In this document: positions 153-2,043 of the stretch, piece after piece
Layout: each line of letters starts with the position of its first letter
How positions within the stretch are numbered: position 1 is the stretch's first letter
From: an uncultured Bacilli bacterium
Lineage (GTDB): Bacteria > Bacillota_I > Bacilli_A > RF39 > UBA660
Assembly (NCBI GenBank): GCA_947589275.1
Contig: CANQAQ010000007.1
Location: 1 to 36,722, forward strand
DNA: 36,722 bases
Direction of reading: 5' to 3'
The notes under the pieces: model-generated
Seen by the model: only the letters and a program-made list of their open reading frames with translations
Told to the model about the DNA's origin: nothing
Database searches by the model: none
Made by a program: the position numbers and the translations under genes

Positions 153-1094
153 TTATTTTATTCTTTTATACATATAAACTGTCACATATGGATTTTGTAT
201 ATCAAAATTCGTTCCTGAACCCACACTTTCTGTTGATGTCTTATTTCCACTAAACGTACTAGTTATTGATCCTGATGGTGTATATGAATGTTGATGAGCT
301 CCTGCACTAGATACAAAACTTGTTGAATTAGCATTTACAAAAGTTCCATCCAAAGGTCCATCATGAAAATATGCAAACTGAGCAGAAGAAGAACCTGGAG
401 CATATATAGGTGTAGTATATTTTATTGCATGAGTATGTGATCCAGCTTCAGTTGTATTAGATTTTGTCCCAGTGAATGTACTTTTAATAGTTCCACTTGG
501 TGTATATGAATGACTATGACTTGGTAAATTTGCTGTTGTTAAACTAATTAAACTACTTCCTCCTGTTTCATTTAAAGTATACACTAATGCATTACCATTT
601 TCATCTGTTGTTGTACCTACTCCTACTAATGTTCTTCCTTGTGAATATGCTTCCCATTCCCCTCCAAATTTACTCTTTACTTTTTGGACTGTATCATCTT
701 TAGTACTTATATATATGCTTCCTACTGGATATACTTCATTTATTACACTACTTTTTAATCCTGTTAATTTATTTTCTAACTCTGTAGTTTTTTTAGTTGA
801 ATTTGATAATTCACTTTCTAATTTTGTAACTTTACTATTTGAACTTGTTAAACTATTTTCTAACTCTGTTATCTTATCTGTTGATTCTAATAATTTACTT
901 TCTAAAGCCGTTATTCTTTCTTCTAACTCACTATTTGTATCTCCATATTCTATATCTTTTATTGTTTCTTCATTTAATGCTTTATTTAGTGAAACACTAT
1001 TATTTACTGTAAATAACATTATACTTATTGCTACTAAAAATATTGCAAATATTGTATATATTATTACTGATGATGCAAATCCTTTTTTATTCAC
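153..1094 (-). CDS. Surface protein: pilin-like N terminus, coiled coil, phage tail-collar-like C terminus
   Basis: The 313-residue product starts at GTG, with AAGGT upstream as ribosome binding site. Residues 1-30 are a short basic KKGF segment followed by a long hydrophobic helix, like a prepilin anchor, but the conserved Glu at position 5 of mature pilins is missing. Residues about 45-115 are repeated ELE/KLE heptads typical of a coiled coil. From about 120 to the end the sequence looks like phage tail collar or receptor-binding domains: YPVGSIYIS near the start, GGEWEAYSQGRTLVGVG, LPSHSHSY, a second HQHSY block, and NPYVTVYMYKRIK at the end. The HSY-TPSG segment occurs twice, about 75 residues apart. 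The role is probably a displayed, trimeric adhesin or glycan-binding fibre. It is a monocistronic unit with its own promoter containing a G10 tract, so its expression may switch on and off. Confidence 0.65.
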   Translation of the reverse strand: MNKKGFASSVIIYTIFAIFLVAISIMLFTVNNSVSLNKALNEETIKDIEYGDTNSELEERITALESKLLESTDKITELENSLTSSNSKVTKLESELSNSTKKTTELENKLTGLKSSVINEVYPVGSIYISTKDDTVQKVKSKFGGEWEAYSQGRTLVGVGTTTDENGNALVYTLNETGGSSLISLTTANLPSHSHSYTPSGTIKSTFTGTKSNTTEAGSHTHAIKYTTPIYAPGSSSAQFAYFHDGPLDGTFVNANSTSFVSSAGAHQHSYTPSGSITSTFSGNKTSTESVGSGTNFDIQNPYVTVYMYKRIK

Positions 1095-1121
1095 TTTATC
1101 ACTACCTTATTTTTTTATTTA

Positions 1122-1151
1122 AGTATACCCCCCCCCCGGCACTTTTGTCAA
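1122..1151 (-). promoter_or_regulatory. Promoter with a G10 tract in the spacer, likely phase-variable
   Basis: On the minus strand TTGACA (1146-1151) and TATACT (1122-1127) are separated by 18 bases. Ten of those, at 1128-1137, are an uninterrupted run of G touching the -10 box. The optimum spacer is 17, so gain or loss of one or two G would strongly change promoter strength. The start codon lies 28 bases beyond the -10 box. Nothing else in this AT-rich window has such a G or C run. Confidence 0.85.
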
Positions 1152-1152
1152 T

Positions 1153-1186
1153 AAAAAAATTACTGATAATATATCAATAATTTTTT
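1153..1186 (-). terminator. Terminator of the WG-repeat/prepilin operon
   Basis: On the minus strand AAAAAATTA-T-TGATA pairs with TATCA-G-TAATTTTTT around a three-base loop. The stem overlaps the last codons of the prepilin gene and ends in a T run. It separates the prepilin gene from the promoter of the next gene. Confidence 0.75.
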
Positions 1187-2043
1187 ATATCTAGTATATA
1201 AGGATTAAACTGAGTCCCATCACCATTTTCTATAACTAAATAATTTTTTAATCTTATAACATTTTTCATACATGCATTAGAATTTTCATTTGAGTTTACT
1301 ATTTCATTTGTACCACTTGTTAATATCTTATAATCATTATTTTGATTTATCCACATATCATTTCCATTTGATATATATGTATTACTATTTATCATACTCT
1401 CATTATATATTTGAGTTGTTATCATATTTTCATTATTATTTATTAATTTTTTTGTTGATTCTGTATAATCATCATTATATGAAGTTTTCATTACTAACTC
1501 AATGTTTTTCTTTTCAACCACATTATCACAATCATTTTTAACTATATATACATATCCATTTGAATCAACTTTAACAATCCTATAAATTTCTTCATTAAAA
1601 CTTACATAATTTTTTGCATTAGTTCCTTTATATACATACTCATTATTAATTTGATATACACCATCATTTTCATTTAAATCTTTAATAATACTTGTAAAAG
1701 TAGTACCCTCAACATAATAAAAATTTATTTTTTTATCTTCATTTACTACTACAATTTTTGTATTTTCATCATATTTTTTTCCAGTTAATGGATTTTTAGC
1801 ATTACTATTTATATAATTTTCTTTTATTAAATCTACAACTTTATATTCCGTAACACCTGTTTTACTGCCATCAGATAAATATTTTCTTTTTGCACTTTCT
1901 ATTATTAATTTTTTAGATGAATCAAATGCACTAATTCTAGAATTTTCTACTACATTTAGTATTTTTGGTGTTGCAATTACTGCAACGACACCTAATATTA
2001 CTATTACAGATAAAAGTTCTATTAATGTGAATCCCTTCTTCAT
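1174..2043 (-). CDS. Type IV prepilin/pseudopilin-like protein
   Basis: The 289-residue protein opens with the class III signal KKGFTLIELLSVIVILGVVA. It would be cut between G and F by a prepilin peptidase, leaving an N-methylated Phe, and it keeps the Glu at mature position 5. The rest is a large hydrophilic domain with no family I recognise. It contains several short hydrophobic beta-like stretches (for example YRIVKVDSNGYVYIVK) and ends with a GDGTQFNPYILD motif. The start has GGAGG 7 bases upstream. It lies 12 bases downstream of the WG-repeat gene, so the two are probably co-transcribed. No pilus assembly ATPase or prepilin peptidase is present in this window. It is longer than usual competence pseudopilins (about 100-150 residues), so a displayed pilin with an added domain is more likely. 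Confidence 0.75.
   Translation of the reverse strand: MKKGFTLIELLSVIVILGVVAVIATPKILNVVENSRISAFDSSKKLIIESAKRKYLSDGSKTGVTEYKVVDLIKENYINSNAKNPLTGKKYDENTKIVVVNEDKKINFYYVEGTTFTSIIKDLNENDGVYQINNEYVYKGTNAKNYVSFNEEIYRIVKVDSNGYVYIVKNDCDNVVEKKNIELVMKTSYNDDYTESTKKLINNNENMITTQIYNESMINSNTYISNGNDMWINQNNDYKILTSGTNEIVNSNENSNACMKNVIRLKNYLVIENGDGTQFNPYILDIKNY

Follow-up and report, generated by a model that had tools for sequence, protein, structure and literature searches.

A poly-G tract in the promoter spacer of a membrane-anchored fibre gene suggests phase-variable expression in an uncultured Bacilli bacterium

The analysed stretch of DNA (the window) comprises 36,722 nucleotides of contig CANQAQ010000007.1 (assembly GCA_947589275.1) from an uncultured Bacilli bacterium of the RF39 lineage, and the locus described here is encoded on its minus strand. 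It contains a prepilin-type gene (1174..2043), assigned by a domain match to N_methyl / IV_pilin_GFxxxE and considered as context only, a promoter (1151-1122) and a gene encoding a membrane-anchored fibre of 313 amino acid residues (153..1094). A 14-bp hairpin followed by a U run (1155..1185; -9.5 kcal/mol, z -4.1) is found between the prepilin gene and the promoter. This structure is terminator-like, is absent from the output of a terminator scan that requires GC, and should stop transcripts of the prepilin gene from reading on, which would make the promoter the fibre gene's own.

Direct reading of the window gives the promoter as TTGACA AAAGTGCCGGGGGGGGGG TATACT. The -35 hexamer TTGACA (1146..1151), which is the same at the other two spacer G10 sites of the genome, is separated from the -10 hexamer TATACT (1122..1127) by an 18-nt spacer (1128-1145) that consists of AAAGTGCC and a G10 tract (1128..1137) in its 3' part, touching the -10 box. 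Downstream are a ribosome-binding site, AAGGTAG (1102..1108), also present at the fibre paralogue of contig C24, and a GTG start codon at 1094. The original prediction, which described these boxes, the 18-base spacer ending in G10, the ribosome-binding site and the start, is exact. A promoter scan assigned the site a sigma-70-type match of 11/12, the top score within the first 2.5 kb. The locus shows the anatomy that characterizes the porA-type class, a good sigma-70 promoter with a homopolymer of at least eight residues between its -35 and -10 boxes. The G10 tract had also been predicted to be extremely unlikely by chance and, in agreement, the expected number of G8 tracts in the window was 0.00 (100 shuffles with dinucleotide content preserved); its location in the promoter spacer is not due to chance.

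The fibre protein shows a KKGF motif with a hydrophobic N-terminal helix, a coiled coil and a C-terminal Gp10_C domain (PF21939). From the N-terminal membrane segment, the coiled coil and Gp10_C, we infer that it is surface-exposed. The window genome encodes a prepilin peptidase and the neighbour of the fibre gene is a prepilin gene; the formal identity of the fibre as a type IV pilin is ruled out, since KKGF is present but the glutamate (+5) of GFxxxE is missing and the N_methyl profile gave no match. Poly-G promoters of other genera also precede genes for Gp10_C proteins (four of the 45 downstream proteins scanned, the fibre of the window included), and no fibre relatives were found in viral contigs.

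The 904-kb window genome (G000) contains four tracts of G8 or longer, each exactly G10, and three of them are located in TTGACA-(18/19)-TATACT spacers at the same promoter position. The genome search for other spacer-located G tracts proposed with the original prediction was thus positive, with sites in contigs C10 and C24. Both read TTGACAAAARTGCCTG10TATACT, with a spacer of 19; the C10 promoter precedes a gene encoding a GNAT acetyltransferase, and the C24 promoter precedes a fibre paralogue at the contig edge. Two further fibre paralogues show a fixed non-G spacer of 18 bp at the same position, and the modal spacer of the non-G TTGACA/TATAMT promoters of the genome is 17. The fourth tract (C6:14852-14861, L009) lies in the 5' part of the coding sequence of an OafA-like acyltransferase gene, beside a sugar transferase gene, in an exopolysaccharide-like locus. 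The predicted product is a 13-residue stub at G10, 369 residues at G9 and 370 residues at G12; this coding tract would switch the acyltransferase through its reading frame, OFF at G10 and ON at G9 or G12.

The pattern TTGACA-N(6-20)-G6+-TATA was found in 27 of 193 genomes of the family, with 88 sites in sum, while its reversed control and its poly-C version gave no site in the 193 genomes. In total, G8TATA occurs 336 times in 48 family genomes versus four times reversed, and tracts of G8 or longer number about 1371 in 136 family genomes, one of the 193 genome rows being left out of this total. Genomes that do not show the strict pattern can have weaker -35 boxes (TTGCAA, TTGCCA or TTGAAA). Large families of G-tract promoters were found in G159, G060, G119 and G132. 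G159 contains 76 poly-G promoters, many of which serve tandemly arrayed paralogues at intervals of about 1.1 kb (L295-L323, odd numbers); there, each gene follows a hairpin-like sequence, TTGCAA, G9 and TATAAT, with one G8 copy among those read. An N-terminal hydrophobic segment is predicted in 91 of the 99 downstream proteins versus 57 of the 191 other open reading frames in the same loci (Fisher 5e-26; this p-value and those of the correlations below are indicative only, sites and pairs being non-independent). Two kinds of target are not surface proteins, the GNAT genes in G000 and G105 and a DUF1292 gene in G105, a point against the surface-switch reading. Furthermore, a sigma-70-family factor with regions 1.2-4 (G136, L087:600-2765, plus strand) is apparently located downstream of a poly-G spacer promoter, and a switch at this gene would affect many others. 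G021 (L273-L279) shows a variant box before surface-protein genes, in which G8 or G9 is followed by TGCAATACAAT and a TTGAAA-like sequence lies upstream; the position of its -10 box is uncertain.

Outside the family, the matches listed include Clostridia, Saccharibacteria, Elusimicrobia, Treponema, Streptobacillus, Streptococcus and Helicobacter, and part of those in GC-rich genomes may be due to chance. In these other phyla, 55 of 73 downstream proteins among the matches listed show an N-terminal hydrophobic segment, at a slightly lower threshold.

Across 76 distinct sites of the family, the length of the tract and that of the remaining spacer are anticorrelated (rho -0.51, p 3e-6), and the variance of the total spacer, 1.78, was under that of every permutation (permuted mean 3.94). 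The same trend was observed in other genomes (rho -0.32, p 0.0017; 93 sites among the matches listed). Such compensation would not be expected unless the total spacing were important, and the comparison therefore argues that it is. Tract lengths at the listed sites span G6 to G16. With one assembly per species, length variation was compared between paralogues within genomes: of 57 pairs with at most one mismatch in 36 flanking bases, 18 differ in tract length, and the flanks of the 57 pairs contain 40 changes in 2052 positions. The large families are near-uniform, nearly all G9 in G159 and mostly G9 in G119; this predominance of a single length may mean that switching is slow or that one state is favoured. 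MutL is encoded in 184 of the 193 family genomes, including the window genome, so a mismatch-repair defect was ruled out as the cause of the tracts.

Recurrence in 27 of 193 genomes, specificity of orientation and position, spacing compensation, length differences between copies and the surface-gene bias all favour the slippage-prone spacer promoter originally proposed to precede a surface fibre. On these comparative grounds, the locus very probably contains a promoter of the sigma-A type in which a hypermutable G tract determines the distance between the -35 and -10 boxes, giving phase-variable control of the membrane-anchored fibre. Slipped-strand mispairing during replication would gain or lose G residues, and the altered spacing would change the fit of RNA polymerase and hence, judging from porA, the level of fibre mRNA. 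Cells of one population would then differ in fibre expression, either by degrees or as ON and OFF. The upstream hairpin would insulate the promoter from the prepilin gene, the same device would act at the second fibre gene and the GNAT acetyltransferase gene of the window genome, and the coding tract in C6 would add a switch of the acyltransferase in the exopolysaccharide-like locus.

The evidence supports a phase-variable promoter like that of porA in Neisseria or those of the Vlp system in Mycoplasma hyorhinis. In porA of N. meningitidis, a poly-G tract of 9-11 residues between the -35 and -10 boxes sets expression of a surface protein in steps, 11G being highest, 10G 2-fold lower and 9G 13-fold lower (PMC3639595). 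In contrast to porA, the boxes described here are the consensus TTGACA/TATACT, the host is an uncultured bacterium of low GC content and Bacilli type, the tract directly adjoins the -10 box and several loci occur per genome; the effect of tract length on expression is predicted from porA. Vlp is a multigene surface family in which each gene has its own homopolymer promoter, of poly-A (PMC10502178). The arrays in G159, G060, G119 and G132 resemble it, and several paralogues with their own homopolymer promoter, as in the Vlp type, are also found in the window genome, however with only two G-tract fibre genes. The system works like Vlp but is not a member of it, because the tract is poly-G. Length-variable poly-G tracts are also known at the promoters of surface-protein genes of Treponema pallidum, the tpr genes, where G8 and G10 were tested with reporters for tprL (PMC7864442). 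Of the two Neisseria parallels drawn originally, porA is the right one and opc is imperfect: in N. meningitidis opc the homopolymer whose length controls transcription is a poly-C that overlaps the -35 region (PMC7864442), whereas the tract described here is a poly-G within the spacer and poly-C was found in 0 of 193 genomes.

The mechanism itself is thus already known, and no reports of poly-G spacer promoters in this bacterial group were found in the open-licence literature. What appears to be new in the searchable literature is the scale, up to 76 such promoters per genome, many in tandem arrays. The promoters predict which surface genes of a large uncultured bacterial family are phase-variable. 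The G count is a simple DNA readout, applicable to existing metagenome reads without culture, and read-level counts would directly show the surface diversification of gut bacteria in a host over time.

As to the ON state, the original prediction suggested that a spacer of 17 may be the strongest and 18 an intermediate, a ranking that is conjectural. The modal spacer in the family is 19 (36 of 76 distinct TTGACA sites), and either most assembled copies are off the 17-bp optimum or G-rich DNA shifts the optimum. According to the latter, the tract slips, but G-rich geometry or the G residues beside the -10 box move the optimum to 18-19, most assembled copies are ON and slips lower them. Besides the family mode, the two fixed fibre paralogues with an 18-bp non-G spacer are consistent with this variant, and so is the orthologous GNAT promoter of G105 (L040/L103), where a conserved interrupted tract, G4AG6, which should slip little, still keeps a 19-nt spacer. 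However, poly-G spacers elsewhere, in several phyla (L106-L221), show a double peak unlike a single shifted optimum: among the matches listed, 20 spacers are of 16 nt, seven of 17 nt, 19 of 18 nt and 24 of 19 nt, a deficit at 17 relative to the neighbouring lengths (Poisson p about 0.001, post hoc test). We give the shifted optimum somewhat less than an even chance. Tentatively, this Bacilli-type family and scattered other gut lineages could instead use poly-G spacer promoters as a general means of bet-hedging that is specific in orientation, with dozens of insulated terminator-promoter-gene cassettes held mostly 1-2 bases off the 17-bp optimum and single slips turning individual surface proteins on. 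The near absence of 17-bp poly-G spacers is a testable clue to the ON lengths.

Improbable, by comparison, is a G tract that serves as a fixed structural or protein-binding spacer element, through G-rich DNA shape or a MerR-like regulator needing a long spacer, with no slippage switch. The exclusive G orientation, the modal spacer of 19 rather than 17, the constant spacing of the G105 GNAT promoter despite its interruption and the near-uniform tract length in large families would all fit such an element. Against it, lengths range from G6 to G16 and differ between copies with near-identical flanks, the flanking spacer bases vary freely between genera, and the bias towards surface genes is consistent with contingency loci, as is the G10 tract within a reading frame of the window genome. 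The listed spacers, including that of the window, show no dyad operator of the kind that MerR-type promoters have within a 19-20 bp spacer, no inverted repeat confined to the spacer was found at the locus, and a MerR-type long-spacer promoter was rejected on this basis.

A slipping tract also remains preferred over an artefact, either of sequencing, with two-colour chemistry generating poly-G, or of misassembly, which is extremely unlikely: the genomes are mostly metagenome assemblies and some sites lie at contig ends, but both flanks of the tracts are assembled, the position relative to the -35 and -10 boxes is the same on either strand across many independent assemblies, and tracts are also present in the named isolates Streptobacillus notomytis, Helicobacter sp. 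and Streptococcus sp. An invertible promoter can practically be dismissed, because the 12-nt imperfect AT-rich inverted repeat around the promoter (1083-1094/1147-1158) has low-complexity arms that overlap the start codon and the -35 box, respectively, and inverting the promoter would leave the G tract unexplained.

In viral contigs, the matches to the pattern mostly correspond to a phage promoter, TTGACAGTTCGATACA-G7-TATATT, with an invariant G7 (L223, L228, L234, L241, L242 and L244), followed in several cases by GTATCGAAC. This phage G7 element looks operator-like and unrelated to slippage.
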